A DNA stretch of 64,000 nt from Agrococcus jenensis (GTDB taxonomy: Bacteria > Actinomycetota > Actinomycetes > Actinomycetales > Microbacteriaceae). The stretch lies in NCBI RefSeq assembly GCF_003752465.1, contig NZ_RKHJ01000001.1, forward strand, positions 1,736,001-1,800,000, written 5' to 3'. The position numbers were made by a program, and so were the translations under genes. Within the stretch, counting starts at the first letter, position 1. Every line of letters begins with the position of its first letter. Shown one piece after another: positions 6,012 through 20,656 of this stretch. The notes under the pieces are model-generated. The model did not search any database. It was not told the origin of the DNA and saw only the letters and a list, made by a program, of their open reading frames with translations.

Positions 6012-7037
<1,026 letters not shown>

Positions 7038-7148
7038 CCTTGGACTCCTGACTCGTCTGGTCGCGGGCCCGGGTGCCGGGCCGCGCGGGATCGGCATCAG
7101 TCTAGGTCGGGGGAGGTGCGAGTCCGAGGGCGGATGCGCGCGAGCGGG

Positions 7149-7177
7149 GTGACAGCGAACCCAACTTCCTATAGGAT
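7149..7177 (+). promoter_or_regulatory. Promoter with operator site 1 (TTCCTATAGGAT) of the tetrulose kinase operon
   Basis: TTCCTATAGGAT at 7166-7177 contains the perfect palindrome TCCTATAGGA (7167-7176). TAGGAT can serve as -10, with GTGACA (7149-7154) as -35 at a 17-bp spacing, so a bound repressor would block RNA polymerase. The same 12-mer occurs upstream of 11014 and 15370. A degenerate version, TTCCTATATGAGGA, lies at 7205-7218 just before the start codon. The likely ligand is the GntR protein encoded at 10180. Confidence 0.75.
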
Positions 7178-7225
7178 TTCCCGGAGTGCCCGCCCCGCAT
7201 GGGGTTCCTATATGAGGAGAGCGCA

Positions 7226-8953
7226 ATGACGCGGCTGTTCAACGATCCGTCCCAGTTCGCCGACGAGATGATCGAGGGCTTCGCTGCAGCAGCCTCGCGC
7301 TGGGTGCAGGCCGCCCCGGGCGGCGTGGTCCGCTCGACGAAGGCCGAGGAGCCCACCGTCGCGCTCGTGATCGGCGGCGGCAGCGGCCACTACCCGGCCT
7401 TCGGCGGCCTCGTCGGCCCCGGGCTCGCGCACGGCGCCGCGATGGGCAACCTCTTCGCCTCGCCGTCGGCCCAGCAGGTCTACGCGATCGCCAAGCAGGC
7501 CGACCAGGGCCTCGGCGTGCTGCTGAGCTACGGCAAGTACGCGGGCGACGTGCTGCACTTCGACCAGGCGCAGGAGCGCCTGCGCGCCGAGGGCATCGAC
7601 GTGCGCACGGTCACCGTCACCGACGACATCTGGAGCGCGCCCAAGGACCGGCTCGACGAGCGCCGCGGCATCGCGGGCGACCTCGCCGTCTTCAAGGTCG
7701 CGGGCGCCGCGGCCCAGGCGGGCTACGACATCGACGGTGTCGAGCGCGTCGCCCAGACCGCGAACGCGCGCACGCGCTCGTTCGGCGTCGCGTTCTCGGG
7801 CTGCACCCTGCCCGGCGCGACCGAGCCGCTCTTCTCGGTGCCCGAGGGCAAGATGGCCGTCGGCCTCGGCATCCACGGCGAGCCCGGCATCGACGAGGTC
7901 GACGTGCCGACCGCCGACGAGCTCGCCGAGCTCTTCGTCGAGAAGCTGCTCGACGAGGTGCCCGAGGGCGTCGAGGTCGAGGGCTCGCGCGTCGTGCCGC
8001 TGCTCAACGGCCTCGGCAGCGTGAAGTACGAGGAGATGTTCGTCGTCTACCGCCGGGTGCACGCGCTGCTCGAGGGGCGCGGGCTCACGATCGTCGAGCC
8101 CGAGGTGGGCGAGCTCTGCACGAGCTTCGACATGGCGGGCGTCTCGCTCACGCTCCTGTGGCTCGACGACGAGCTCGAGCGCCTGTGGTCGGCCCCCGCC
8201 GACAGCGCCGGGTTCCGCAAGGGCTCCGTCGCGCCGCAGCAGCAGGCCGACGCGGTCGAGGCGATCATCGCCACCCACGACGTGCCCGAGTCGACCGCCG
8301 AGTCGCGCGACGCCGCGCACCTCATCGCGGCTTCGCTCGCGGCGGTCGCCGACGCGATCGACGAGGCGGCCGAGGAGCTCGGCCACATGGACTCCGTCGC
8401 CGGCGACGGCGACCACGGCATCGGCATGCAGCGCGGCTCGCGCGCGGGCAGCGACGCGGCGACCGCGGCGTTCCGCGCCGGCGCCGGCGCGAAGACCACC
8501 CTCACGTGGGCGGCTGACGCGTGGAGCGACCGCGCGGGCGGCACCTCCGGCGCGATCTGGGGCGAGATGCTCCGCACCCTCGGCGAGCACGTGGGCGACG
8601 ACCGCCACGTCACCTCCCAGACGGTCGCCGACGGCATCGTCGCCGCGAAGGACGCCGTGATGGCGTTCGGCAAGGCGAAGGTCGGCGACAAGACGATGGT
8701 CGACGCGATCGTGCCGTTCTCCGACGACCTCTCCCGCCGCATCGCCGACGGCCAGCGCCTGCGCGACGCGTGGGGGCACTCCGCCGGCGTCGCCGACGAG
8801 GCCGCCCAGGAGACCGCGGCGCTCGCCGCGACGCTCGGGCGCGCGAAGTCGCACGGCGACAAGTCGATCGGCACGCCCGACCCGGGCGCCGTGTCGTTCG
8901 CGCTCATCTGCAGCACCATCTACGACGTCCTCACCACAGACAGGGAGCAGTGA
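7226..8953 (+). CDS. lerK: Dihydroxyacetone kinase family protein, probable L-erythrulose kinase
   Basis: A 575-residue single-chain DAK kinase with an N-terminal DhaK domain (about 1-330) and a C-terminal DhaL ATP-binding domain (about 370-570). His217 in GLGIHGEPG corresponds to the residue that binds the ketose covalently, and the Mg-ATP aspartates are in GDGDHG near residue 393. ATP-dependent DAKs phosphorylate dihydroxyacetone or L-erythrulose. Genes for RpiB-type and TIM-type isomerases follow directly, as in the Mycobacterium smegmatis tetritol cluster (LerK, DerI, LerI), so L-erythrulose 1-phosphate is the likely product. The ATG at 7226 has GAGGAGA 5 nt upstream; the ATG at 7199 lacks one. 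Dihydroxyacetone kinase activity remains possible. Confidence 0.85.
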
Positions 8954-8955
8954 CC

Positions 8956-9411
8956 ATGGCGATTCGCCTGATCGTCGGCAGCGACAAGGCCGGCTTCGAC
9001 TACAAGGAGATCCTCAAGCGCGACATGGAGGCGCACGAGCTCGTCGAGTCCGTCGTCGACGTGGGCGTCGACGACGCCGACGGCGCCACCTCCTACCCGA
9101 AGGTCGCGATCGAGGCCGCCGAGCGCATCGCGCGCGGCGAGGCCGACAGGGCGCTGCTCGTGTGCGGCACCGGCCTCGGCGTCGCGATCGCGGCGAACAA
9201 GGTCACGGGCATCCGCGCCGTCACCGCGCACGACTCGTTCTCGGTCGAGCGCGCGGTGCTCTCGAACGACGCGCAGGTGCTCTGCATGGGCCAGCGCGTG
9301 GTCGGCATCGAGCTCGCCCGCCGCCTCGCCAAGGAGTGGCTGACGTACACCTTCGACCCGTCGAGCCACTCGCAGGCGAACGTCGACGACATCTGCGCGT
9401 ACGAGGGCTGA
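8956..9411 (+). CDS. derI: RpiB-type isomerase, probable D-erythrulose 4-phosphate isomerase
   Basis: A 151-residue RpiB/LacA/LacB-family sugar-phosphate isomerase. The catalytic Cys70 lies in [15 protein letters not shown] and is followed by [16 protein letters not shown], the pattern of RpiB paralogues that act on tetrulose phosphates. In the tetritol pathway the enzyme converts D-erythrulose 4-phosphate to D-erythrose 4-phosphate, which enters the pentose phosphate pathway. It starts 2 bp after the kinase stop. A ribose 5-phosphate isomerase role is the alternative, but its position between a DAK kinase and a second triose-phosphate-isomerase-like gene favours the C4 role. Confidence 0.85.
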
Positions 9412-9415
9412 TCGC

Positions 9416-10183
9416 TTGTCCGGGATGCTGATCGGCTCGAGCCTGAAGATGTACTTCGGGCGCGCGCGCACGCTCGAGTGGACGCGCGCCGTCGCGGCCA
9501 TCTGCGCCGAGCACCCCGCGGTGCAGGGCGGTGTCGTCGAGCCGTTCGTCATCCCCACCTTCCCGTCCATCCCCGAGGTCGTCGCGATCGCGTCGGATGC
9601 GCGGATGCTCGTGGGCGCGCAGGACCTGCACTGGGAGGACTCCGGCGCCTTCACCGGCGAGGTGTCGGCACCCGAGCTCGCGGAGCACGGCGTCTCGCTC
9701 GCCGAGATCGGCCACGCCGAGCGCCGCGCGATGTTCGGCGAGAGCGACGCCACCGTCGCGCTCAAGGTCGCGGCCGCGCTCCGCAACGGCATCGCCCCGG
9801 TGCTGTGCATCGGCGAGACCGACGAGGGCGCGCCTGCCGCGGCGGCCGCCGCGTGCATCCGGCAGCTCGAGGCGTCGCTCGCGCTTGCCCGGGAGGCGGA
9901 CGCGATCGGCCGGCTCGTCGTCGCCTACGAGCCGGTGTGGGCGATCGGCGCCCCGCGACCGGCGGGGGACGACCACATCCGAGCGGTCGCGAGCGCGCTG
10001 CGCGAGCACCTCGCCGACGACCAGCTCGACGCGCAGGTCATCTACGGCGGCAGCGCCGGCCCCGGGCTGCTGCCGCGCATCGCCGACAGTGTCGACGGCA
10101 TGTTCCTCGGCCGCTTCGTGCACGACCCGGCGGCGTTCGGCACCATCCTCGACGAGGCGCTCGCGCTGCGGGGCGCGCGATGA
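9416..10183 (+). CDS. lerI: Triosephosphate isomerase-like protein, probable L-erythrulose 1-phosphate isomerase
   Basis: About 252-255 residues of a TIM-barrel isomerase. The catalytic trio of the family is visible: Lys in SLKMYF (instead of the usual NWKM), His in EIGHAERR, and Glu in VVAYEPVWAIG. The unusual N-terminal SLKMYF separates it from housekeeping TpiA and resembles the EryH/LerI group, which turns L-erythrulose 1-phosphate into D-erythrulose 4-phosphate. The first possible start is TTG 9416; ATG 9425, three codons on, is equally plausible. Its end overlaps gntR by ATGA. It supplies the step between the kinase and the RpiB-type isomerase. Confidence 0.83.
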   Translation: MSGMLIGSSLKMYFGRARTLEWTRAVAAICAEHPAVQGGVVEPFVIPTFPSIPEVVAIASDARMLVGAQDLHWEDSGAFTGEVSAPELAEHGVSLAEIGHAERRAMFGESDATVALKVAAALRNGIAPVLCIGETDEGAPAAAAAACIRQLEASLALAREADAIGRLVVAYEPVWAIGAPRPAGDDHIRAVASALREHLADDQLDAQVIYGGSAGPGLLPRIADSVDGMFLGRFVHDPAAFGTILDEALALRGAR

Positions 10184-10893
10184 CCGCGCAGCTGCCCCTG
10201 CGGGTGGGCGACCTCGAGCGGCGCGGCCTGCGCGACCGCGTCTACGAGCTCATCCTCGAGATGCTGCTCGAGGGCGACGTCGAGCCCGGCTCGCGGCTGT
10301 CGATCGACTCGCTCGCGAAGCAGCTCGACGTCTCGCCCACGCCGGTGCGGGAGGCGATGGTGCAGCTCGAGCGCACCGGCCTCGTCACCCGCGAGGCGCT
10401 CAAGGGCTACCGGGTGGCACCGCCGCTCGGGCGGGAGCAGCTCTCGGAGCTCTTCGACGCCCGCCTCATGCTCGAGCTCGAGGCCACGCGCCTCGCCGCC
10501 CCGCGCGCGCAGGCGGTGCTCGACGAGCTGCGCCTCGCGCACCGGCTGCACCAGGAGTGCGCGGACCGCGTCGTCGAGGCGATGGAGCGCGACGCCGACG
10601 TGCCCGTGCGGACGACGCAGGACTACTTCGAGGCCGACAGCGCGTTCCACCGGGCGATCTTCGCCGCCGCGGGCAACCGCTACCTCGTCGGCATGCACGA
10701 GGACCTCGGCGCCATGACCCACCGGCTCCGGCAGGCGGTGCTGCGAGGCACGAGCGACGTGCGCGAGGCGCACAGCGAGCACGAGCGCGTGCTCGAGGCG
10801 CTCGAGCGCGGCGACGCCGAGGCGGCGACCGCCGCGATGCGTGCGCACATCGAGGGCGTGCGCCTGCGCTCCGTGCGCGACGAGTCGGCGTAG
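10180..10893 (+). CDS. GntR family (FCD domain) transcriptional regulator
   Basis: A 237-residue GntR/FadR-type regulator. The winged HTH occupies about residues 12-80, with 'SIDSLAKQLDVSPTPVREAM' as the recognition region. The all-helical FCD domain (about 90-225) has candidate metal or ligand ligands in DSAFHRAI and SEHERVL. FCD domains usually bind a carboxylate or sugar-acid effector. It is the last gene of the kinase-isomerase operon and is the only regulator inside the 7.2-19.4 kb cluster, so it is the best candidate to bind TTCCTATAGGAT upstream of all three units. The site assignment is inference. Confidence 0.88.
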   Translation: MTAQLPLRVGDLERRGLRDRVYELILEMLLEGDVEPGSRLSIDSLAKQLDVSPTPVREAMVQLERTGLVTREALKGYRVAPPLGREQLSELFDARLMLELEATRLAAPRAQAVLDELRLAHRLHQECADRVVEAMERDADVPVRTTQDYFEADSAFHRAIFAAAGNRYLVGMHEDLGAMTHRLRQAVLRGTSDVREAHSEHERVLEALERGDAEAATAAMRAHIEGVRLRSVRDESA

Positions 10894-10957
10894 GGGAGCG
10901 GCGGCCGGCCCAGCGCCCACGCGACGGGGTTGCGCGCAGAGCGTTATCAGATTACCT

Positions 10958-10969
10958 TTCCTATAGGAT
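10958..10969. promoter_or_regulatory. Operator site 2 (TTCCTATAGGAT)
   Basis: Identical 12-mer to sites 1 and 3, centred on the palindrome TCCTATAGGA. It is 45 bp upstream of the start at 11014, in an otherwise very G+C-rich sequence. TAGGAT within it is a plausible -10; no convincing -35 is seen. Confidence 0.75.
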
Positions 10970-11013
10970 CTTTTCGAGGCCGAGCGGCCCACCGATGCAA
11001 CGGAGCAGACGAG

Positions 11014-11952
11014 ATGGCAGACCAGCACGCATTCACCGCAGAGACCTGGCCCATCGCCACGTGCCTGCACGGCATCCCGCCCGTGTCGCGCGACGGCGTC
11101 GCGCTCCACGACGCGACCCCTGAGGTCTGGGACGCGGCGTTCGCGCAGGTCGCGGACGTCGGCTTCTCGCTCGCGGAGCTCGCCGACAGCCACATCCGCC
11201 CCGCCGACCTCGAGCCCAGCCGCAAGGACGAGCTCTTCTCGATCCTGGACGCGCACGGCATCCGGTTCCCCTCGGTGCACCTGCAGCGCCAGAGCGTCAT
11301 CATGCCCGGTCACGAGGAGCGCAACCTCGCGTACGCGCACCGCACGATCGACGCGGCAGCCGAGTGGGGCATGGAGGTCTTCTCGACCGGCCTGCACGAG
11401 CCGTTCAGCGACGCGCAGCGCAAGGCGCTGTGGTTCTGGACCGCGCAGGGCCCCGTGAACGACCCGGACGACCCCGAGCTGTGGGCGGCCGCCGTCTCGC
11501 GCCTCCGCGAGCTCGGCACGCACGCCGCCGAGGTGGGCCTCAAGATGTCGCTCGAGATGTACGAGGACACCTTCCTCGGCACCGCCGACTCGGCCGTGCG
11601 CCTCGTCGAGGAGATCGGGCTCGACAACGTCGGCCTCAACCCCGACATCGCCAACCTCATCCGCCTCCACCGGCCGATCGAGGACTGGCGCGAGATGCAC
11701 GCGAAGACGCTGCCCTACGCGAACTACTGGCACGTCAAGAACTACACGCGCGACGAGGCCGCCGACGGCTCGTGGGCCACGAGCGTCCCGAGCTCCATGG
11801 AGGCCGGCCTCATCAACTACCGCCAGGTCGTGCGCGACGCGCTCGAGCTCGGCTTCGACGGCATCTTCCTCATGGAGCACTACGGGGGCGACAGCCTCGG
11901 CAACTGCTCCACCAACCAGCGCTACCTGCGCTCGCTCCTCCCGAAGGGCTGA
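11014..11952 (+). CDS. Sugar phosphate isomerase/epimerase-like TIM-barrel protein
   Basis: A 312-residue protein of the xylose-isomerase-like TIM barrel superfamily (AP endonuclease family 2 fold). Candidate metal ligands are Glu in MSLEMYEDT, Asp/Asn in GLNPDIAN, His in YWHVKNYTRDE and Glu in FLMEHYGGDS. Relatives include sugar isomerases, epimerases and 3-oxo-acid decarboxylases of the D-apionate pathway (OiaC group). It is the first gene of the second operon of the regulon and precedes two dehydrogenase genes, so decarboxylation or isomerisation of an oxidised sugar acid is a reasonable guess. The exact reaction cannot be assigned. Confidence 0.78.
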   Translation: MADQHAFTAETWPIATCLHGIPPVSRDGVALHDATPEVWDAAFAQVADVGFSLAELADSHIRPADLEPSRKDELFSILDAHGIRFPSVHLQRQSVIMPGHEERNLAYAHRTIDAAAEWGMEVFSTGLHEPFSDAQRKALWFWTAQGPVNDPDDPELWAAAVSRLRELGTHAAEVGLKMSLEMYEDTFLGTADSAVRLVEEIGLDNVGLNPDIANLIRLHRPIEDWREMHAKTLPYANYWHVKNYTRDEAADGSWATSVPSSMEAGLINYRQVVRDALELGFDGIFLMEHYGGDSLGNCSTNQRYLRSLLPKG

Positions 11953-11954
11953 AC

Positions 11955-12908
11955 ATGACCACGAAGACCATCGCCGTCGTCGGATCCGGCTACATGGGCG
12001 GCGGCATCGCCCAGGTGCTCGCGCTCGCCGGCTACGACGTGCAGATCGCCGACATCAGCGCCGAGATCGCGCAGCAGAACCGCGCGCGCCTGCTCGAGGA
12101 GGCGGCGCAGTTCGCCGCCGACGGCCTCTTCCCGGCCGACGCCGTCGAGCGCATCGAGGCCAAGCTGACCGCCGCGGAGTCGATCGAGTCGGCCGTCGCC
12201 GACGCCGACTTCATCGAGGAGGCCGTGCCCGAGAAGATCGAGATCAAGCACGCGACGCTCGCGCGCATCTCGGCCGCCGCTCGGCCCGACGCCATCATCG
12301 GCTCGAACACCTCGACGATCCTCATCGGCTCGCTCGCCGAGGCCGTCGAGCACCCCGAGCGCTTCCTCGGCGTGCACTTCTCGAACCCGGCGCCCTTCAT
12401 CCCGGGCGTCGAGCTCATCGCCCACGCGGGCACCGACGAGTCGGTGCTGCCCGTGGTCGAGGAGATCGTCGCAGCGACCGGCAAGGAGACGGCCCGCGTC
12501 GGCGACGCGACCGGCTTCGTGCTCAACCGGCTGCAGTACGCCCTCTTCCACGAGGCCACCCAGCTCGTGGAGGAGGGCGTCGCGACGCCCGACGACATCG
12601 ACACGATCGTGCGCACGACCTTCGGCTTCCGCCTGCCGGTCTTCGGGCCGTTCGCGATCGCCGACATGGCGGGCCTCGACGTGTACGCGTTCTGCTACGC
12701 ATCGCTGCAGACGCGCTGGCCCGAGCGCTTCGCGACGCCGGACTCCCTCAAGGAGCTCGTCGACGCCGGCAAGTTCGGCACGAAGACCGGCGCCGGCTAC
12801 CTCGACGTGCCCGCCGAGCGCACCGCCGAGCTGGTGGCTTACCGCAACAAGGCGTACGTGGCCATCAAGCAGCTCATGGACGAGCTCGGCCCGGCCCCCA
12901 TCCACTGA
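11955..12908 (+). CDS. 3-hydroxyacyl-CoA dehydrogenase-like NAD-dependent dehydrogenase (sugar-acid type)
   Basis: A 317-residue member of the 3-hydroxyacyl-CoA dehydrogenase superfamily. The NAD-binding motif GSGYMGGGIAQ is at residues 10-20. The catalytic His lies in GVHFSNPAPF, and the C-terminal domain begins around GFVLNRLQYALFHEA. In this context a fatty-acid role is unlikely: no thiolase or enoyl-CoA hydratase is near. Family members such as L-gulonate 3-dehydrogenase oxidise the C3 hydroxyl of sugar acids and yield 3-keto acids prone to decarboxylation. I infer such a role here. It starts 2 bp after the barrel gene. Confidence 0.82.
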   Translation: MTTKTIAVVGSGYMGGGIAQVLALAGYDVQIADISAEIAQQNRARLLEEAAQFAADGLFPADAVERIEAKLTAAESIESAVADADFIEEAVPEKIEIKHATLARISAAARPDAIIGSNTSTILIGSLAEAVEHPERFLGVHFSNPAPFIPGVELIAHAGTDESVLPVVEEIVAATGKETARVGDATGFVLNRLQYALFHEATQLVEEGVATPDDIDTIVRTTFGFRLPVFGPFAIADMAGLDVYAFCYASLQTRWPERFATPDSLKELVDAGKFGTKTGAGYLDVPAERTAELVAYRNKAYVAIKQLMDELGPAPIH

Positions 12909-12931
12909 TCCGCGAGAGGCATCCGCACACC

Positions 12932-13702
12932 ATGGCAACCGCTTTCCCCGAGTCCAAGACCGTCGTGCTGACCGGCGCGGCCTCCCCGCGCGGCATCGGC
13001 CGCGCATCCGCCCACCACCTGGCCGAGCTCGGCTGGAACGTCGGCATCATCGACCTCGACGCGGACGCGGCCAAGGCCGTCGCCGCCGAGATCGCCGAGC
13101 AGCACGGCGTGCAGGCCGCGGGCGCCGGCGCGAACGTCGCGGACGAGGCGCAGGTGCGCGCCGCCTTCGACGAGCTCGAGGCGGCGCTGCCGCAGGTCGT
13201 CGCGCTCGTCAACCTCGCGGGCGTCTCGAGCCCGGTGCCGTACCTCGAGGTCACGGCCGACGAGTGGAACCGCGTCATGGGCATCAACATGAACGGCGTG
13301 CACTACGCGACGCGGCGCGCCGTCGAGTCGATGGTGCAGCACGGCGTCGGCCGCGTCGTGAGCCTGTCGTCGGTCTCGGCGCAGCGCGGCGGCGGCACCT
13401 TCTCGAAGACCGTCTACTCGGCGGCCAAGGCCGGCGTGATCGGCTTCACCCGCTCGGTCGCCCGCGAGCTCGGCCCGCAGGGCGTGACGGTCAACGCCAT
13501 CTCGCCCGGCCCGATCGACACCGACATCATGGGCGGCACCCTCACCGAGGAGCGCAAGGCGGCCATGGCGGCCGACGGCGTGCTCCCGCGCATCGGCACG
13601 CCGCGCGACATCGCGGCGGCCATCGCCTACCTGATCTCCGAGGACGCCGGATTCGTGACGGGGCAGACCCTGAACGTCGACGGCGGCCTCTACATGCACT
13701 GA
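12932..13702 (+). CDS. SDR family NAD(P)-dependent oxidoreductase
   Basis: A 256-residue classical SDR. The cofactor motif is TGAASPRGIGRAS near residue 12; NLAGVS stands for NNAG; the catalytic Ser is in SLSSVSAQ and Tyr-Lys in YSAAKAG; the C-terminal GQTLNVDGG closes the fold. Classical SDRs of this length oxidise or reduce polyols, keto-sugars and hydroxy acids. It is the third gene of the second operon and lies between the HCDH-like dehydrogenase and a permease, so it probably handles the same sugar acid or an epimer of it. Substrate and cofactor preference are not evident. Confidence 0.87.
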   Translation: MATAFPESKTVVLTGAASPRGIGRASAHHLAELGWNVGIIDLDADAAKAVAAEIAEQHGVQAAGAGANVADEAQVRAAFDELEAALPQVVALVNLAGVSSPVPYLEVTADEWNRVMGINMNGVHYATRRAVESMVQHGVGRVVSLSSVSAQRGGGTFSKTVYSAAKAGVIGFTRSVARELGPQGVTVNAISPGPIDTDIMGGTLTEERKAAMAADGVLPRIGTPRDIAAAIAYLISEDAGFVTGQTLNVDGGLYMH

Positions 13703-13705
13703 GCC

Positions 13706-13801
13706 ATGCGGCACTGGTCGAAGTCCCGCATCCTGTTCCTCGCCCTCGGCATCGTGCTCGTCGGTGTGGGACTGTGGCTCCTGCTCCCATCCATCCTCTG
13801 A
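13706..13801 (+). CDS. Small membrane protein, 31 residues
   Basis: A short ORF starts with ATG 3 bp after the SDR stop and ends 34 bp before the permease start. It encodes a basic N-terminus (MRHWSKSR), a single hydrophobic helix of about 20 residues rich in Leu, Val and Gly, and a short C-terminal tail (LLPSIL). It keeps strand, spacing and codon use of the operon. Such single-span peptides can act as transporter accessory subunits or membrane anchors. No homologue is recognised; the evidence is position and composition only. Confidence 0.55.
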   Translation: MRHWSKSRILFLALGIVLVGVGLWLLLPSIL

Positions 13802-13835
13802 CGAACCACCCAACCCGCACTCAAAGGAGAGTTCT

Positions 13836-15209
13836 GTGTCCGACACGGCTCTGAGCGCGAAGTCCCCGGCGAACCCCGCCCTCGACTCCGCCATCAAGAA
13901 GGCCGCCAAGCATCTGATGCCGATGCTGGTGATCCTGTACTTCGTCGCCTTCCTCGACCGCACGAACGTCGGCTTCGCGGAGGACGCGCTGCAGATGGAT
14001 CGCGGCATCTCGGCGGGCGCCTTCGCGCTCGGCGCGGGCATCTTCTTCATCGGCTACGCGATCTTCGAGATCCCGTCGAACCTGCTGCTCAAGAAGTTCG
14101 GCGCCCGCTTCTGGCTCGCGCGCATCGCGATCACGTGGGGCATCGTCGCCGCCGCGTTCGCGTTCGTGACGGACGACACGTCGTTCATCGTCCTGCGCTT
14201 CCTGCTGGGCGTCACCGAGGCCGGCCTCTTCCCGGGTGTCATCCTCTTCCTCTCCGAGTGGTTCCCGAACAAGCACCGCGTGCAGATGTTCGCGATCTTC
14301 TACCTCGCGCAGCCGTTCTCGCAGATGCTCGGCGCGCCGCTCTCCGGTGGCCTCATCAGCTTCGGCGAGACGCTGACGCCGTGGGCAGGCTGGCAGGTCA
14401 TGTTCTTCGTCGAGGGCATGATGGCCGTCGTCGCGGGCATCGCCGCGATCTTCCTGCTCATCAACGGTCCGCAGGACGCCAAGTGGCTGAACGCGGACGA
14501 GAAGCGCGCGCTCATCGACGTGATGGCCAAGGAGGACACGGTCCGCGAGTCCGACGGCCCGACGGGCATCTGGCGCGCGATGGGCAACTGGAAGGTGTGG
14601 TACTTCACCATCATCTACTTCTGCCTGCAGATCGCGGTCTACGGCACGACGTTCTACCTGCCGCAGCAGGTCTCGAACCTCATCGGCCAGGAGGTCGGCT
14701 GGCAGGTCGGCCTCGTCGCAGCCATCCCGTGGCTCGTCGGCCTCTTCGCGTGCTACTTCTTCGGCAAGGCCGCGAACACGATCGTCCGCCGCCGCAACTG
14801 GGGCACGGCGTTCTACATCATCACCGGTGTCTCGATCCTCGCCTCGGCGTGGGCGGGCGCGAACGGCCAGCCGATCCTCGGCATCCTGTTCATCACCATC
14901 GCGGTGGCGAGCTTCCTCTCGGTGGGACCGATCACGTGGTCGTACCCGACGGCGTTCCTCACCGGCACGGCGGCGGCGGCGGGCATCGGCCTCATCAACT
15001 CGCTCGGCAACCTCGGCGGCTTCGTCGCGCCGCTCATGCGCACGGGCATCAACGAGGCCGTGCCGACCGACTCCGGCGCCTGGGGCGTCGTCTCGCTCGG
15101 CGTCTTCGCCTTCCTCGCGGCGGCGATGCTCTTCGGCACGAAGTTCTTCAGCGCCAAGGCCGACTCGCTGCTCGAGGAGGACGCCGAGACGGTGGCCCCC
15201 GGCCACTGA
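13836..15209 (+). CDS. MFS transporter, anion:cation symporter family
   Basis: A 457-residue permease with about 12 membrane spans. The N-terminal DRTNVGFA motif near residue 45 is diagnostic of the ACS family, which carries sugar acids such as galactonate and glucarate, tartrate, phthalate and similar carboxylates with protons. GPITWSYPTAFLTGTAAAAG near the C-terminal half is also typical. GTG 13836 is chosen because AAAGGAGAG precedes it by 4 nt. It is the last gene of the second operon and is followed by a strong terminator. The regulon thus has two carboxylate importers, this one and TctCBA. Confidence 0.9.
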   Translation: MSDTALSAKSPANPALDSAIKKAAKHLMPMLVILYFVAFLDRTNVGFAEDALQMDRGISAGAFALGAGIFFIGYAIFEIPSNLLLKKFGARFWLARIAITWGIVAAAFAFVTDDTSFIVLRFLLGVTEAGLFPGVILFLSEWFPNKHRVQMFAIFYLAQPFSQMLGAPLSGGLISFGETLTPWAGWQVMFFVEGMMAVVAGIAAIFLLINGPQDAKWLNADEKRALIDVMAKEDTVRESDGPTGIWRAMGNWKVWYFTIIYFCLQIAVYGTTFYLPQQVSNLIGQEVGWQVGLVAAIPWLVGLFACYFFGKAANTIVRRRNWGTAFYIITGVSILASAWAGANGQPILGILFITIAVASFLSVGPITWSYPTAFLTGTAAAAGIGLINSLGNLGGFVAPLMRTGINEAVPTDSGAWGVVSLGVFAFLAAAMLFGTKFFSAKADSLLEEDAETVAPGH

Positions 15210-15230
15210 TCGCGTCGCGCACGCACCCCT

Positions 15231-15264
15231 GGACGGGGCTGGGAGCTCGCTCCCGGCCCCGTCC
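15231..15264 (+). terminator. Rho-independent-type terminator hairpin after the MFS gene
   Basis: Two 15-nt arms (15231-15245 and 15250-15264), fully paired with one G-U, close a CTCG tetraloop. The downstream sequence TCGTCGTTA is only weakly T-rich. It ends the second operon 22 bp after the permease stop and separates it from the promoter/operator of pdxA2. Confidence 0.8.
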
Positions 15265-15313
15265 TCGTCGTTACCGGATCGATGCAGAGCGAAGTGTGGA
15301 TCCTCGCTGCTAT

Positions 15314-15325
15314 TTCCTATAGGAT
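15314..15325. promoter_or_regulatory. Operator site 3 (TTCCTATAGGAT)
   Basis: Third exact copy of the 12-mer, centred on TCCTATAGGA, 45 bp upstream of the ATG at 15370. The distance to the start codon is the same as for site 2. TAGGAT can act as -10; a weak -35 may lie near 15295-15302. Confidence 0.75.
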
Positions 15326-15369
15326 TCTCAGAACGCCACCGATCGGCGCCCTGGACACGACGGAGTGAC

Positions 15370-16380
15370 ATGACGCAGCAGACCTCGCGACCCCGCATCG
15401 CGCTCACCTTCGGCGACCCGGCCGGTGTCGGCCCGGAGCTCGTCGCACGCCAGCTCGCGCAGGCGTCGACGACCGAGGCCGCCGACATCCTGCTCATCGG
15501 CGACGAGCAGGAGCTCACGGACGCGATGGCGGATGCCGGCGTCGAGTTCTCCTGGACGCGCGAGGCCGGCACCGGCGTGCCGCAGCTCATCGACAACGGC
15601 GGCGAGCGCCCCGAGGGCGGCTTCGTGCGCCAGCAGGCCACCCGCGAGGGCGGGCAGTGGGCGATGGCGAGCCTCCGCACGGCGCTCGAGCTGTCGAAGG
15701 CCGGCGAGGTCGACGCCATCGTCTTCGCCCCGCTCAACAAGTCGTCGCTCCACCTCGCGGGCATGCAGGAGAACGACGAGATGTCGTGGTTCGAGACCGT
15801 GCTCGACGACGGCACCGCCGCGACCGAGCTCAACGTGCTCCCCGAGCTGGTCACGGCGCGCGTGACGAGCCACTGCTCGCTCGCCGAGGTCGCCGGCCTC
15901 ATCGACTTCGACCTCGTCGTCGAGCGCGGCGAGCTGCTCGAGCGCGTGCTGCGCGCCCGCGGCATCGAGGCGCCGCGCATCGGCGTCTGCGCGCTCAACC
16001 CGCACGCGGGGGAGTCGGGCAAGTTCGGCCGCGAGGAGATCGACATCATCGCCCCCGCCATCGAGGAGCTGCGCTCGCGCGGCGTCGACGCGAGCGGGCC
16101 CTTCCCGAGCGACACGATCTTCCTCAAGGCCCGCGACGGCGCCTTCGACGGCGTGCTGACGATGTACCACGACCAGGGCCAGATCGCCGTGAAGCTGCTC
16201 GGCTTCGACCGCGGCGTGACGATGGCCGGCGGCCTCAGCGTCGCGGTCACCACGCCCGCCCACGGCACGGCCTTCGACGTCGTCGGCCAGCGCGTCGCCT
16301 CCACCGGCGCCTACGAGCACGCCTTCAGCACCGCCGTCGGCGTCGGTGCGCAGCGCCGCGCGGCGCGCGAGCTCGCCTAG
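15370..16380 (+). CDS. pdxA2: PdxA-like 4-hydroxythreonine-4-phosphate dehydrogenase family protein
   Basis: A 336-residue PdxA-family oxidative decarboxylase. The three metal-binding histidines of the family are seen in VTSHCSLAEV, ALNPHAGESGKFG and MYHDQGQIAVK, and the N-terminal FGDPAGVGPE motif is intact. True PdxA serves vitamin B6 synthesis; PdxA2 paralogues oxidise and decarboxylate four-carbon sugar-acid 4-phosphates such as threonate 4-phosphate to dihydroxyacetone phosphate. The gene heads an operon with a TctCBA transporter and has the regulon operator upstream, so a catabolic PdxA2 role is favoured. The usual DUF1537 kinase partner is absent from the window, so the substrate may differ. 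Confidence 0.85.
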   Translation: MTQQTSRPRIALTFGDPAGVGPELVARQLAQASTTEAADILLIGDEQELTDAMADAGVEFSWTREAGTGVPQLIDNGGERPEGGFVRQQATREGGQWAMASLRTALELSKAGEVDAIVFAPLNKSSLHLAGMQENDEMSWFETVLDDGTAATELNVLPELVTARVTSHCSLAEVAGLIDFDLVVERGELLERVLRARGIEAPRIGVCALNPHAGESGKFGREEIDIIAPAIEELRSRGVDASGPFPSDTIFLKARDGAFDGVLTMYHDQGQIAVKLLGFDRGVTMAGGLSVAVTTPAHGTAFDVVGQRVASTGAYEHAFSTAVGVGAQRRAARELA

Positions 16381-16417
16381 ACCTCTCCCTCCCACCACCC
16401 ACAGCAAGGAACCGACA

Positions 16418-17383
16418 ATGAAGTCACGCACCACCACGGCCCTCATCGGCGCCGTCGCCGTCGCAGCCCTCGCCGGCTGCTCCAGCACCTCGGGCGCGCC
16501 CGCCGCAGACGGCGCGTTCGAGCCGCAGGACGTCCGCATGATCGTCCCGTTCTCGGCGGGCGGCGGCTCCGACGCCTCCGGCCGCGCGATCGCCTCGGGC
16601 CTCGAGACCGCGAGCGGCGCGACCGTCACGGTCGAGAACCGCGAGGGCGGCTCCGGCGCCGTCGGCTACTCGCACCTGTTCGCGCAGGAGGGCAACCCGA
16701 ACTACCTGCTCGCCTCGGAGACCACGCTGCTGTCGCTGCCGCTCACGACGGAGGTCGACTACAACTACGAGTCGTTCACCCCGATCATGAAGCTCGGCGA
16801 CGACTACACGCTCGTCGTCGTGCCGGCCGACAGCCCGTTCGAGACCTGCACCGACGTCGTCGACGCGGCCAAGTCCGACGGCGTGGTCGTCGCGGTCTCG
16901 GGCGCGATCAGCCTCGACGAGATCGTCTTCTCGCTCATCGAGCAGGACCAGGACGTCACCTTCGACCGCGTGCCCTACGAGAGCGGCAGCGAGGTCATCG
17001 CCGGCCTGCTCGGCGGCACCGTCCAGGTCGGCTCGCTCAACCCGGGCGAGGTGCTCGGCCAGCTCGAGTCCGGCGACCTGCGCGCGCTGTGCTCGCTCTC
17101 CGAGGAGCGCTACGAGTACGAGCAGATCGCCGAGGTCCCCACGGCGATCGAGCAGGGCATCGACGTGGCCTTCGCCCAGTGGCGCGGCTTCATCGCTCCG
17201 GGCGGCATCAGCGACGAGGCGCGCGACTACTGGATCGCCGCTGCGGAGGAGTACGCAGCGAGCGAGGAGTACACGACCTACATCGAGGAGAACCTCATGC
17301 AGCCGAACGCCATCTACGGCGACGAGTTCGTCGAGTACCTCGGCCAGAACTCGGCCGACCTCGAAGCGGCGCTGGCAGAGTGA
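16418..17383 (+). CDS. tctC: Tripartite tricarboxylate transporter substrate-binding protein
   Basis: A 321-residue Bug/TctC-type extracytoplasmic solute receptor. A lipoprotein signal is clear: a hydrophobic stretch followed by the lipobox LAGC with Cys21. The mature part begins with DVRMIVPFSAGGGSDASGRA, the family hallmark that binds the substrate carboxylate. It delivers a carboxylate to the TctBA membrane subunits encoded directly downstream. Its operon with pdxA2 and the shared operator suggest a sugar acid as ligand. AAGGAA lies about 8 nt before the ATG. Its stop overlaps the start of tctB. Confidence 0.9.
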   Translation: MKSRTTTALIGAVAVAALAGCSSTSGAPAADGAFEPQDVRMIVPFSAGGGSDASGRAIASGLETASGATVTVENREGGSGAVGYSHLFAQEGNPNYLLASETTLLSLPLTTEVDYNYESFTPIMKLGDDYTLVVVPADSPFETCTDVVDAAKSDGVVVAVSGAISLDEIVFSLIEQDQDVTFDRVPYESGSEVIAGLLGGTVQVGSLNPGEVLGQLESGDLRALCSLSEERYEYEQIAEVPTAIEQGIDVAFAQWRGFIAPGGISDEARDYWIAAAEEYAASEEYTTYIEENLMQPNAIYGDEFVEYLGQNSADLEAALAE

Positions 17384-17934
17384 CGCTCTCGCCCAGGATC
17401 GTCAGGGCCGCGTTCAGCGCGGCCCTGGCGCTCCTGGGCCTCGCTGCAGCCATCGGCGGATGGGGCTACGGCGTCGCCCAGGAGAACGGACAGATCGGCC
17501 CGGGGTTCCTGCCCGTCGCGCTCGGCATCATCATCGTCGTGCTCGCGGGCGTGGACACCGCCTCCATCCTGCTGCGGCGCGAGCCGGCCCACCCGGCGGA
17601 GCAGCTCACGGGCGTCGAGGCGGAGGCTGACGCCGCCGCGATCGACACGGTCGAGGAGTCGCCGGACATCGACGCGCTCGGCCGCACGCAACGCCAGCGC
17701 AACCGCATGCTCGTCGTCGTCGGCGGCATGCTGCTCGGCGCGCTGCTGCTCGTGCCCGTGCTCGGCCTGCTCATCTCGCTCGGCGTGCTCATGCTCACCA
17801 TCGCGATCGTCGTCGAGCGACGGCCGATCATCTCGTCGATCATCGTCAGCGTCGTCGCCGTCGGGATCGTCCACCTCATCTTCGGGGTGCTGCTCAACGT
17901 GCCCCTGCCCACCGGGCTGATCGGACTCATCTGA
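17380..17934 (+). CDS. tctB: Tripartite tricarboxylate transporter small membrane subunit
   Basis: A 184-residue TctB-family protein with four hydrophobic spans: one near the N-terminus, one around residue 45, and two in the C-terminal half that form the VVVGGMLLGALLLVPVLGLL and I-V-S-V-V-A-V-G segments. A hydrophilic acidic loop rich in Ala and Glu separates the halves. The GTG at 17380 overlaps the tctC stop by GTGA, and the stop overlaps the tctA start by TGATG, so the three subunits are translationally coupled. TctB is the poorly conserved small subunit, so the call rests partly on position. Confidence 0.85.
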   Translation: MTLSPRIVRAAFSAALALLGLAAAIGGWGYGVAQENGQIGPGFLPVALGIIIVVLAGVDTASILLRREPAHPAEQLTGVEAEADAAAIDTVEESPDIDALGRTQRQRNRMLVVVGGMLLGALLLVPVLGLLISLGVLMLTIAIVVERRPIISSIIVSVVAVGIVHLIFGVLLNVPLPTGLIGLI

Positions 17935-19442
17935 TGCTCGACAACCTCATCCTGGGCTTCCAGACCGCCCTCACGCTCGAGAACGTGCTCTGGTGCGCGG
18001 TCGGCGTCGTGCTCGGCACCGTCATCGGCCTGCTGCCGGGCCTCGGCTCGACCACCGGCGTCGCCGTGCTGCTGCCGCTCACCTTCGTCATGGAGCCCGT
18101 CACGGCGCTCATCATGCTCGCCGGCATCTACTACGGCGCGCAGTACGGCGGCACGATCACCTCGGTGCTCATCTCGACGCCCGGTGAGGCCGCGAGCGTC
18201 GTCACGACGCTCGACGGCTACCAGATGGCGAAGCGGGGGAGGGCGGGTGCCGCGCTGGCGATCAGCGCGATCGGCTCGTTCATCGCCGCGATCATCTCGC
18301 TCGCGCTGCTCATGGCGCTCGCGCCACCGCTCGCGAGCATCGCGCTGGAGTTCCAGCCGGTCGAGATGTTCGCGATCATGATCCTCGGCCTCGTGATCGT
18401 CGTCACGTTCCAGGGCGGCGCGCTCGTGCGCGGCGGGCTCATGGCGGCGCTCGGCCTGCTCGTCGCCACCGTCGGCATCTTCCCCGGCACCGGCAGCACC
18501 CAGCGCTTCACGTTCGACAACGTCAACCTGCTCTCGGGCATCCCCTTCGTCGAGGTGATGATCGGCATCTTCGCGCTCGGCGAGGTGCTGTACCAGATCC
18601 GCGTCGGGGCGGCGAAGCCCATCCGTGCCCGCTTCAAGGACATGGTGATCAAGCGCAAGGACATCACCGACTCCATGCCGGCGATCCTGCGCGGCTCGGG
18701 CATCGGCTTCCTGCTCGGCATGCTGCCGGGCGCCGGATCGACCCTCGCGTCGTTCATGTCCTACGGCATCGAGCGCCGCGTCAGCAAGAACAAGGCGAAC
18801 TTCGGCAAGGGCGCGATCGAGGGCGTCGCGAGCCCGGAGAGCGCGAACAACGCGGCCGCGAACGCCAACTTCGTGCCGACCCTCGCGCTCGGCATCCCCG
18901 GCGGCGCGACCACGGCCGTGCTGCTCGGAGCGTTCACGATCTTCGGCATCCAGCCGGGCCCGCAGCTGTTCGAGACGCAGCCCGAGCTCGTCTGGGGACT
19001 GCTCGTCTCGTTCTTCATCGGCAACGTGCTGCTGCTCGTGCTCAACCTGCCGCTCGCGCCGGTGTTCGCGCAGATGCTGCGGATCCCGTACGGCTACCTG
19101 TACCCGATCATCCTGCTGACGTCGCTCGTCGGTGCGTACTCGGTGGGCAACAACATGTTCAGCGTGTGGCTCGTGCTCATCTTCGGCGTGCTCGGCTACC
19201 TCATGAAGGAGCTCGACCTGCCGCTCGCGCCGTTCGTGCTCGGCCTCGTGCTCGGCCCGCTCTTCGAGAAGGCGCTCGTGCAGACGAGCGCGATCGGCCA
19301 GGGCGACCTCGGCGTCGTCTTCCAGAGCCCCATCGCCGTCGGCGTGCTGCTGCTCGCCGTCGTGATGGTGCTGCTGCCGAGGCTCGTCGGACTGGCCCGC
19401 GGCGCGCTCCGCCGCCGCAAGGAGCAGGCACTCGTCGGCTGA
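17934..19442 (+). CDS. tctA: Tripartite tricarboxylate transporter large permease subunit
   Basis: A 502-residue TctA-family permease with about 12 membrane spans. Family landmarks are GLLPGLGSTTGVAVLLPLTF near residue 40, YYGAQYGGTITSVLISTPGE near residue 65, and a second glycine-rich repeat, GMLPGAGSTLASF, near residue 265. It couples the ion gradient to carboxylate import with TctC and TctB. It closes the third operon of the TTCCTATAGGAT regulon, and a perfect hairpin terminator follows 50 bp later. Confidence 0.93.
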   Translation: MLDNLILGFQTALTLENVLWCAVGVVLGTVIGLLPGLGSTTGVAVLLPLTFVMEPVTALIMLAGIYYGAQYGGTITSVLISTPGEAASVVTTLDGYQMAKRGRAGAALAISAIGSFIAAIISLALLMALAPPLASIALEFQPVEMFAIMILGLVIVVTFQGGALVRGGLMAALGLLVATVGIFPGTGSTQRFTFDNVNLLSGIPFVEVMIGIFALGEVLYQIRVGAAKPIRARFKDMVIKRKDITDSMPAILRGSGIGFLLGMLPGAGSTLASFMSYGIERRVSKNKANFGKGAIEGVASPESANNAAANANFVPTLALGIPGGATTAVLLGAFTIFGIQPGPQLFETQPELVWGLLVSFFIGNVLLLVLNLPLAPVFAQMLRIPYGYLYPIILLTSLVGAYSVGNNMFSVWLVLIFGVLGYLMKELDLPLAPFVLGLVLGPLFEKALVQTSAIGQGDLGVVFQSPIAVGVLLLAVVMVLLPRLVGLARGALRRRKEQALVG

Positions 19443-19531: not shown

Positions 19532-19630
19532 TCGCGTCGGCGAAGGAACCGCGGGACTTTCGGCGCCCGGGTGGCGGGTCCGGCGCATCCCCTCACTACG
19601 CTCGAAGCAGGCTCACCGATGGAGGACACC

Positions 19631-20656
19631 GTGGCACCCGTGGCGCAGCAGCTCGACTCGCAGAAGGCCCCCGTCTTCGACAACCCCGACCGCAACCTCG
19701 CGATGGAACTCGTCCGCGCGACGGAGGCCGCGGCCATCCGTGCGGTGCCGTTCATCGGCCGCGGCGACAAGAACGCCGCCGACGGTGCGGCGGTGGATGC
19801 GATGCGCACGTTCCTCGCGACCGTCGCGTTCGACGGCGTCATCGTCATCGGCGAGGGCGAGAAGGACGAGGCGCCCATGCTGTTCAACGGCGAGCACGTC
19901 GGCAACGGCCGCGGCCCGTCCTGCGACATCGCCGTCGACCCGATCGACGGCACCTCGCTCACCGCCGCCGGTCGGCAGAACGCGCTCAGCGTCATCGCCG
20001 TCGCCGACCGCGGCACGATGTACGACCCGGTGGACGCGTTCTACATGGACAAGCTCGTCGCCGGGCCGGAGGCGATCGGCGTCATCTCGCTCGAGCAGTC
20101 GATCGGCGACAACATCCGCGAGCTGGCGAAGGCGAAGCGCCGCGACGTCGAGGAGATCGTCGTCGCCGTGCTCGACCGCCCGCGGCACGCCGAGCTCATC
20201 GAGGAGATCCGCGCGGCAGGCGCAGGCACGCGCCTCATGCGCGACGGCGACGTGGCCGGCGGCATCAACGCATCCCGCTGGGAGAGCCGCATCGACATGT
20301 GCGCCGGCGCGGGCGGCACGCCCGAGGGCGTCATCACCGCCTGCGCGATCAAGGCGCTCGGCGGCTTCATGGAGGGGCGCCTGTCGCCGCAGAGCGACGA
20401 GGAGCACCGCAAGGTCATCGCCGCGGGCCACGACCTCACCCGCGTGCTCGCGCTCGACGACCTCGTGTCGAGCGACAACACCTACTTCGTCGCCACGGGC
20501 GTCACCGACGGCCAGCTGCTCGACGGCGTGCGCCGCAAGGGTCCGCTGATCCGCACCGAGTCGCTCGTGCTGCGCTCCAAGACCGGCACGGCCCGCCGCG
20601 TCATCGCCGAGCACCGCGCCGAGAAGTGGCTCGAGAAGGACTCGCACCGCGACTGA
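19631..20656 (+). CDS. glpX: Class II fructose-1,6-bisphosphatase
   Basis: A 341-residue GlpX-type enzyme that hydrolyses fructose 1,6-bisphosphate in gluconeogenesis, the usual FBPase of actinobacteria. The metal and phosphate motifs are IGEGEKDEAPM near residue 75 and DPIDGTSLTAAG near residue 105. GTG 19631 is chosen because a perfect GGAGG (19621-19625) lies 5 nt upstream; an ATG at 19619 would add four residues but has no such signal. It is monocistronic, with a terminator upstream and a hairpin downstream. Gluconeogenic FBPase would be needed on C4 acids, hydroxybutyrate or pyrimidines, but no direct regulatory link is seen. Confidence 0.93.
   Translation: MAPVAQQLDSQKAPVFDNPDRNLAMELVRATEAAAIRAVPFIGRGDKNAADGAAVDAMRTFLATVAFDGVIVIGEGEKDEAPMLFNGEHVGNGRGPSCDIAVDPIDGTSLTAAGRQNALSVIAVADRGTMYDPVDAFYMDKLVAGPEAIGVISLEQSIGDNIRELAKAKRRDVEEIVVAVLDRPRHAELIEEIRAAGAGTRLMRDGDVAGGINASRWESRIDMCAGAGGTPEGVITACAIKALGGFMEGRLSPQSDEEHRKVIAAGHDLTRVLALDDLVSSDNTYFVATGVTDGQLLDGVRRKGPLIRTESLVLRSKTGTARRVIAEHRAEKWLEKDSHRD

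Follow-up and report, generated by a model that had tools for sequence, protein, structure and literature searches.

A cluster of twelve genes at positions 7226-19442 of a 64,000-nucleotide stretch of the Agrococcus jenensis genome (contig NZ_RKHJ01000001.1, positions 1,736,001 to 1,800,000; here called the window) is organized in three operons. With moderate confidence we propose that these form a single GntR-controlled regulon for catabolism of a free L-pentonate, in which the acid is oxidized at C3, the product is decarboxylated by a xylose-isomerase-like barrel protein, AP2, and the resulting L-erythrulose is converted to erythrose 4-phosphate. The proposal is carried by the gene content of the operons, an operator in front of each of them, paralogues of the trunk enzymes in other parts of the genome, a near-exclusive pairing of AP2 with one of two unrelated dehydrogenases (HCDH or PdxA), the loss of the phosphate pocket in PdxA, and the families to which the importers belong, all of which are read from sequence.

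Three Operons with a Common Operator

Gene identities were assigned by Pfam and NCBIfam scans of the window proteins, with AP2 as our name for the AP_endonuc_2 barrel protein. The order of genes is DAK-RpiB-TIM-GntR in operon 1, AP2-HCDH-SDR-(31-amino-acid open reading frame)-MFS in operon 2 and PdxA-TctCBA in operon 3, and the range given above begins with the start codon of DAK and ends with the stop codon of TctA. All enzymes, the regulator and the importers that had been named in an earlier, sequence-only reading of this DNA were recovered by the scans.

7166-7177, unstranded: operator-like palindrome TTCCTATAGGAT, before operon 1
7226-8953, forward: DAK-type kinase (Dak1 and Dak2; Pfam), proposed L-erythrulose 1-kinase
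8956-9411, forward: RpiB-type isomerase (LacAB_rpiB; Pfam, PDB ranking, mixed NCBIfam result), proposed D-erythrulose-4-phosphate isomerase
9425-10183, forward: TIM-type isomerase (Pfam, PDB ranking), proposed L-erythrulose-1-phosphate isomerase
10180-10893, forward: GntR-type regulator (NCBIfam matches to PhnR-, NanR- and CsiR-type regulators), proposed to control the three operons in response to a ligand
10958-10969, unstranded: operator-like palindrome TTCCTATAGGAT, before operon 2
11014-11952, forward: AP2, xylose-isomerase-like barrel (AP_endonuc_2; Pfam, 5tnv match, tree, metal-site residues, model), proposed 3-oxo-L-pentonate decarboxylase and hub
11955-12908, forward: HCDH-like dehydrogenase (3HCDH_N and 3HCDH; Pfam, partner counts, GVHFSNP and VELI motifs), proposed L-pentonate (L-arabinonate-type) 3-dehydrogenase
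12932-13702, forward: SDR (Pfam, co-occurrence with AP2 and MFS), proposed dehydrogenase for a sugar or sugar acid, acting before HCDH
13706-13801, forward: 31-amino-acid single-helix open reading frame between SDR and MFS, conserved across loci, without Pfam match
13836-15209, forward: MFS importer (Pfam; best NCBIfam match the D-galactonate transporter family TIGR00893 at 260 bits, below the cut-off of 395)
15314-15325, unstranded: operator-like palindrome TTCCTATAGGAT, before operon 3
15370-16380, forward: PdxA-like dehydrogenase, non-phosphate type (Pfam, residue comparison), proposed L-pentonate (L-lyxonate-type) 3-dehydrogenase
16418-17383, forward: TctC solute-binding protein with lipoprotein-like signal (Pfam, translation)
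17383-17934, forward: TctB (Pfam)
17934-19442, forward: TctA permease (Pfam)

The palindrome TTCCTATAGGAT starts 60, 56 and 56 nucleotides 5' of the first start codons of operons 1, 2 and 3, respectively. When two mismatches are allowed the window holds eight matches, that is four places (three exact and one degenerate) read on both strands, where 0.23 would be expected. The degenerate copy, TTCCTATATGAG at 7205-7216, overlaps the ribosome-binding site of the DAK gene. In the whole genome of 2,962,035 bases, searched with at most one mismatch, TTCCTATAGGAT occurs nowhere beyond its three exact places, and the reversed control pattern gave one forward and one reverse match. Because TTCCTATAGGAT precedes each of them, the claim of the sequence-only reading that the three operons belong together is supported, with the GntR-type protein as their candidate regulator.

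The same operator recurs in related loci. After removal of visible duplicates, 113 actinobacterial loci yielded 161 sites at up to two mismatches, and 145 of these, in 89 loci, lie within 300 nucleotides upstream of a DAK, AP2, PdxA or GntR gene; five shuffles gave 15-23 sites each, with 0-2 so placed. The 24 loci without a site in this position include four that carry a GH51 gene (L036, L099, L117 and L138), which are presumably under other control, and both Bifidobacteriaceae loci. No operator site lies by the operon in five proteobacterial loci (there is one unrelated match in L127).

AP2 and Its Probably Exchangeable Dehydrogenases

Apart from the window, 118 loci with AP2 were compared after removal of eight visible duplicates, at identity thresholds of 45% and 42%. 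Within 10 kb AP2 has HCDH as neighbour in 74 of them, PdxA in 26, both in 2 and neither in 16, so that the window is the third case with both. The importers follow the dehydrogenase: a TctC gene is found no more than 10 kb from AP2 in 20/26 PdxA loci and in 0/74 HCDH loci, and SDR and MFS both occur within this distance in 54/74 HCDH loci. On a tree of AP2 with 119 rows the PdxA label changes 11 times, at least 9 of which are forced by well-supported branches, and the HCDH label 17 times (at least 13 forced). These numbers of changes are below those of all 500 shuffles, yet far above one; the bootstrap had not converged completely, and some joins are uncertain because of long branches.

Since the partners have been exchanged repeatedly beside a conserved AP2, and since loci with both dehydrogenases and a single AP2 exist, AP2 would obtain the same product from either of them. 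This suggests that one product of HCDH or PdxA is handed to AP2, and that the two enzymes are probably alternative dehydrogenases feeding a single step. Oxidation at C3 and decarboxylation of a pentonate-type acid to L-erythrulose, as sketched in the sequence-only reading, thus stays plausible, but the arrangement of HCDH and PdxA as successive steps of a linear route is at odds with the partner counts. To the barrel protein, left without a role in that reading, can now be assigned the shared step after the dehydrogenase, which is probably decarboxylation.

In AP2 the residues E181 (119/119), D211 (119/119), H240 (117/119, with Q in two) and E288 (118/119, with one gap), which we take to be metal ligands by analogy with D-tagatose 3-epimerase, are nearly invariant, and R217, K242 and R246 are present in 119/119. 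The AP2 match 5tnv is a xylose-isomerase-like barrel of Mycobacterium smegmatis, with an entry title that names no function. In two compact loci (L141 and L143, with the order TIM-RpiB-DAK-GntR followed by AP2-HCDH-GntP) no other candidate decarboxylase was seen among the importer, dehydrogenase and trunk genes.

A PdxA-Like Enzyme without the Phosphate Pocket

In three phosphate-type enzymes, i.e., E. coli PdxA, a DUF1537-linked PdxA and the Pantoea D-threonate-4-phosphate dehydrogenase, the residues H136, T137, N283 and R292 (E. coli numbering) are all present (3/3). We take these four positions to hold the phosphate end of the substrate. In 13/13 enzymes of the window type they have been replaced by E136, by T283 and by V, I or L at 292, with M, L, I or H at 137. 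Eleven of the 13 share a locus with AP2, and two, from Phaeobacter and Pantoea, are plasmid relatives without annotated AP2 in the stretch fetched. The zinc histidines 166, 211 and 266 as well as K274 are, in contrast, kept in all 18 PdxA proteins compared. Because the phosphate-pocket residues are lost while the metal histidines are kept, the substrate of the PdxA-like enzyme is probably a free acid. The window protein scores 251 bits against TIGR00557, below its cut-off of 290.

A PdxA fold acting on a non-phosphorylated acid is also found in TphB, the terephthalate cis-dihydrodiol dehydrogenase (4aty), and the zinc histidines are kept in two TphB-like plasmid proteins. The pocket of this pair reads Y, P, A and F at the four positions, in contrast to E, (M, L, I or H), T and (V, I or L) in the window type.

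A Probable Tetrulose-Phosphate Trunk

The DAK-type kinase and the TIM- and RpiB-type isomerases share one operon. Elsewhere the genome has another TIM-family gene (C1:2436637), a second RpiB (C1:2121856), another Dak1 gene (C1:2315701) and two DUF1537 kinases. Because further TIM, RpiB and Dak1 genes exist, the three enzymes in the window are probably dedicated. Across 24 genomes of this genus, AP2 goes with the trunk TIM: 15 genomes carry the two genes and 9 lack them, when AP2 matches weaker than E 1e-5 are ignored; among the nine, G002 is 78% and G015 86% complete, and the AP2 of G011 is of a divergent, 45% type.

Against the PDB, the TIM-type protein scores 149 bits with 3s6d, 140 with 11ef, which is titled "L-erythrulose-1-phosphate isomerase", and 121 with the best plain triosephosphate isomerase among the 60 matches listed, 9quu. 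The RpiB-type protein scores 188-189 bits with 3qd5 and 3sdw, both putative ribose-5-phosphate isomerases, and 104 with the next match, 5ifz. The sequence-only reading had the pathway end in tetrulose-phosphate isomerases: these isomerase scores are mixed, and the single operon together with the paralogues elsewhere makes a trunk from erythrulose to erythrose 4-phosphate probable, an assignment that does not hang on the TIM ranking in the PDB alone.

Importers, Gene Neighbours and the Substrate

Near AP2 stand the importers TctCBA, permeases of the GntP gluconate type (L052, L116, L119, L141, L143 and L145, with L116 and L141 checked by Pfam) and an MFS protein nearest the D-galactonate family. 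Because they belong to sugar-acid-type families, the imported substrate is likely a sugar acid, as had been supposed; its identity as an L-pentonate is a further step, for which the neighbouring genes give hints. In Paracoccus, AP2-DAK-PdxA-TctCBA adjoins an L-idonate 5-dehydrogenase and a gluconokinase. Locus L099 has the order FGGY kinase-AraD-AraA-AP2-HCDH-GH51-ALO, and L138 the order AP2-DAK-RpiB-HCDH-GH51, where an ALO-like oxidase is encoded on the other strand; the GH51 protein of L138 passes the NCBI cut-off for the arabinosylfuranosidase ArfA (726 versus 625). GH51 or GH39 genes occur in 8/74 HCDH loci and in 0/26 PdxA loci, which are small numbers. GH51 and the L-arabinose genes araBDA nearby hint at L-arabinonate as substrate of HCDH. 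By Fischer-projection reasoning, oxidation of L-arabinonate at C3 and loss of CO2 would give L-erythrulose directly, which is the enantiomer that the trunk needs.

The cell-wall enzymes GH51 and GH39 would also fit a route of the D-apionate type, in which HCDH or PdxA would convert a branched acid to 3-oxo-isoapionate or a precursor of it and AP2 would be OiaC. Work on D-apiose, reportedly that of Carter et al. in 2018, is said to describe OiaC, a 3-oxo-isoapionate decarboxylase, together with L-erythrulose, which counts for such a route. The tertiary C3 of D-apionate would, by reasoning, be beyond oxidation by HCDH or PdxA, there is no RuBisCO-like domain among the scanned operon genes, and the gene set of L099 is one for L-arabinose; we therefore consider this route quite improbable.

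The pathway genes were found in a large number of Micrococcales as well as in Bifidobacterium and on plasmids of rhizobia. Besides the compact sets of L141 and L143 there is one in Bifidobacterium mizhiense (L116), with the order DAK-AP2-PdxA-GntP-RpiB-TIM. The order PdxA-TctCBA-AP2-DAK was seen in three records, one each from Sinorhizobium, Shinella and Pararhizobium. AP2 occurs in 19/394 sampled genomes of the class, the host genome counted. Among plasmids it was found in 94 records, of which Sinorhizobium and Ensifer together account for 84. It is matched on plasmids of S. meliloti, S. medicae and S. fredii, and one S. meliloti record shows the gene order in full. In two Agrococcus contigs AP2 is 97% and 94% identical to that of the window.

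A Candidate Pathway and Its Rivals

Consider, then, how the three operons may work together, with the L-pentonate, the C3 position, the decarboxylase role of AP2 and the exact tetrulose intermediates as parts that we infer. MFS and SDR would feed HCDH, and TctCBA would feed the PdxA-like enzyme of the non-phosphate type. Either enzyme, with NAD, would oxidize the C3 hydroxyl of an L-pentonate to a 3-oxo acid, and AP2 would, in a metal-dependent reaction, split this common acid into L-erythrulose and CO2. DAK would phosphorylate L-erythrulose to L-erythrulose 1-phosphate, TIM would isomerize this to D-erythrulose 4-phosphate, and RpiB would produce D-erythrose 4-phosphate, which enters the pentose phosphate pathway. 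C3 oxidation followed by decarboxylation to L-erythrulose is supported as the most economical chemistry.

Stereochemistry offers a tentative and rather doubtful extension. L-gulonate 3-dehydrogenase oxidizes a left-pointing C3 hydroxyl, as in L-arabinonate, and the substrates of PdxA have a right-pointing C3 hydroxyl, as in L-lyxonate, the C3 epimer of L-arabinonate. If HCDH took the former acid and the PdxA-like enzyme the latter, both oxidations would erase the C3 centre and therefore lead to an identical 3-oxo acid, from which a single AP2 decarboxylase would make L-erythrulose. Such a convergence, if true, would account for the swapping of unrelated dehydrogenases beside one AP2 and for the presence of both in this genome next to just one AP2; it would also constitute a new CO2-releasing route from pentonates to erythrose 4-phosphate with late phosphorylation.

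Several findings weigh against the pathway as drawn. Known PdxA enzymes release CO2 in the same reaction, which would make an AP2 decarboxylase superfluous on the PdxA branch. In 16/118 loci neither partner is present at the thresholds used, and some of these (L041, L137 and L144) have dehydrogenases or transporters of another kind. Just 8/74 HCDH loci have GH51 or GH39, and 3/5 GH51 loci (L036, L099 and L117) have neither DAK within 10 kb nor an operator site near these genes. The RpiB-type protein passes the family of actinobacterial ribose-5-phosphate isomerases, TIGR02133 (207, cut-off 168), and not that of DerI, NF051858 (140, cut-off 240). The top PDB match of TIM, 3s6d, is titled "putative triosephosphate isomerase". 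After 5tnv, finally, the named folds that come nearest to AP2 belong to ketose 3-epimerases and IolE-like proteins rather than to decarboxylases, and one structure, 5h1w, shows an L-ketose 3-epimerase with L-erythrulose bound, so that there is room for an epimerase role.

The last point leads to an explanation that we hold to be unlikely, although less so than the others considered, namely that AP2 is a tetrulose 3-epimerase, like the D-tagatose and L-ribulose 3-epimerases or EryC, which turns D-erythrulose into L-erythrulose for the trunk. HCDH or PdxA would then oxidize a D-pentonate, and the 3-oxo acid would lose CO2 spontaneously or on PdxA to give D-erythrulose. The closest profile of AP2 is that of ketose 3-epimerases, to which many of its closest fold matches after 5tnv also belong, and its four metal-ligand positions are kept. 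From such a scheme it follows, however, that D-erythrulose could go straight to D-erythrulose 4-phosphate, by which TIM and the epimerase become needless. AP2 also stays with HCDH in 15/74 HCDH loci that have no DAK within 10 kb (L077, L080 and L098 being cut short by a locus or contig end), so that it seems tied to the acid step, not to the trunk. The invariant R217, K242 and R246 suit an acid better than a neutral ketose, although one of the three has a counterpart in epimerases.

The names DAK and TIM, together with the title of 3s6d, would suit a pathway for C4 acids, in which HCDH or PdxA turns threonate or erythronate into dihydroxyacetone and DAK and TIM lead on to glyceraldehyde 3-phosphate. 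PdxA2 enzymes do give a dihydroxyacetone-type product from phosphorylated tetronates, and in L132 the module that we label A is followed by genes resembling those for a DUF1537 kinase and an L-threonate dehydrogenase, with similar-looking genes, named by eye, beside it in L135. In this scheme the RpiB of the trunk operon is left without a job, the genome has one more gene each of the TIM, Dak1 and RpiB families outside the cluster, besides its two DUF1537 kinases, and TIM scores higher with 11ef than with any plain triosephosphate isomerase chain among the matches listed. A C4-acid pathway is accordingly improbable, to much the same degree as the D-apionate-type route.

The L-pentonate pathway, if true, adds a branch of C3 oxidation and decarboxylation from pentonates into erythrose 4-phosphate. 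In the part of the literature covered, known breakdown of pentonates runs through dehydration, by Weimberg- and Dahms-type routes, and in part of the open-licence literature no account joining pentonate catabolism with erythrulose was found; subscription journals may hold one. The pathway would call for re-annotation of genes now called PdxA and dihydroxyacetone kinase, and it would provide a substrate class for some TctC importers and for the structure 5tnv. It would also be a case of one enzymatic step replaced repeatedly by an unrelated enzyme.

Comparison with Known Pathways

According to the sequence-only reading, none of the tetritol, threonate/erythronate and apionate layouts in their known forms matches exactly, and the comparison bears this out. 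In the tetritol pathway of M. smegmatis, as described in PMC12780249, a DAK-type kinase with TIM-type and RpiB-type isomerases converts erythrulose to D-erythrose 4-phosphate. The window has the same trunk, but entry is proposed from an acid via HCDH or PdxA and AP2, and a polyol ABC transporter, a feature of the tetritol system, is absent among the genes scanned in 7226-19442. The M. smegmatis trunk genes bear the names LerK, LerI and DerI.

The D-threonate/D-erythronate pathway consists of a DUF1537 kinase and PdxA2, and as in the window a PdxA-family dehydrogenase acts there on a sugar acid. In the window, in contrast, there is no kinase before PdxA, the phosphate-pocket residues are lost (13/13), and a four-carbon product would be phosphorylated later. 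The earlier statement that a DUF1537 sugar-acid kinase is lacking holds for the operons but not for the genome, as both of its DUF1537 kinases lie outside the cluster.

In one branch of the oxidative D-apionate pathways, again reportedly from Carter et al. in 2018, the acid is decarboxylated to L-erythrulose, which is then phosphorylated. A RuBisCO-like protein is not needed in all apionate branches. The operons in the window differ from these pathways in that no RuBisCO-like protein is among the scanned genes, the dehydrogenases are HCDH or PdxA, and a linear pentonate is proposed.

The HCDH fold is shared with lambda-crystallin (3ado, 3f3s), which has L-gulonate 3-dehydrogenase activity; there an aldonate is oxidized at C3, as is proposed here. 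The window HCDH scores 102-108 bits with 3ado and 3f3s, as against 175 bits with a probable 3-hydroxybutyryl-CoA dehydrogenase.

Flanking Genes and Minor Observations

The cluster is flanked by a class II fructose-bisphosphate aldolase (6012-7040, reverse strand) and a GlpX-type bisphosphatase (about 19610-20656). Both look like housekeeping genes, and they also border loci without the module that we label B, e.g., L018 and L019.

The unannotated 31-amino-acid frame at 13706-13801 starts with W-S-K-S-R, followed by a membrane helix, and gave zero matches in the Pfam scan. A similar small frame fills the gap between SDR and MFS in 50/51 other loci where these two are adjacent, L035 being the only one without it. 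It may act as a small companion of the MFS importer.

Beside the HCDH module of L132 (14051-16457) and L135 (14448-16900) lie the DUF1537-like kinase and L-threonate-dehydrogenase-like genes mentioned above, hinting at co-use of ascorbate-derived acids; the L132 pair was scanned, and both proteins are below the NCBI cut-offs. Several PdxA-type loci (L025:16058-17703, L029:3591-4514, L085:7056-8540) carry a sugar-lactonase-like Amidohydro_2 protein and a PF04199 cyclase.

In L041 (9679-13914), from the same genus, the trunk is 72-96% and AP2 44% identical, and the locus represents a third type of entry, with a zinc-type alcohol dehydrogenase, a second xylose-isomerase-like barrel of 251 amino acids and an NRAMP-like transporter, all named by eye. 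In L137 (6115-16470), likewise judged by eye, neither HCDH nor PdxA occurs, and the neighbours of AP2-DAK-RpiB are a BMP-type ABC transporter, a class-III aminotransferase and a protein resembling adenosine deaminase; L144 has, by eye, an ABC set and an aminotransferase similar to those of L137.

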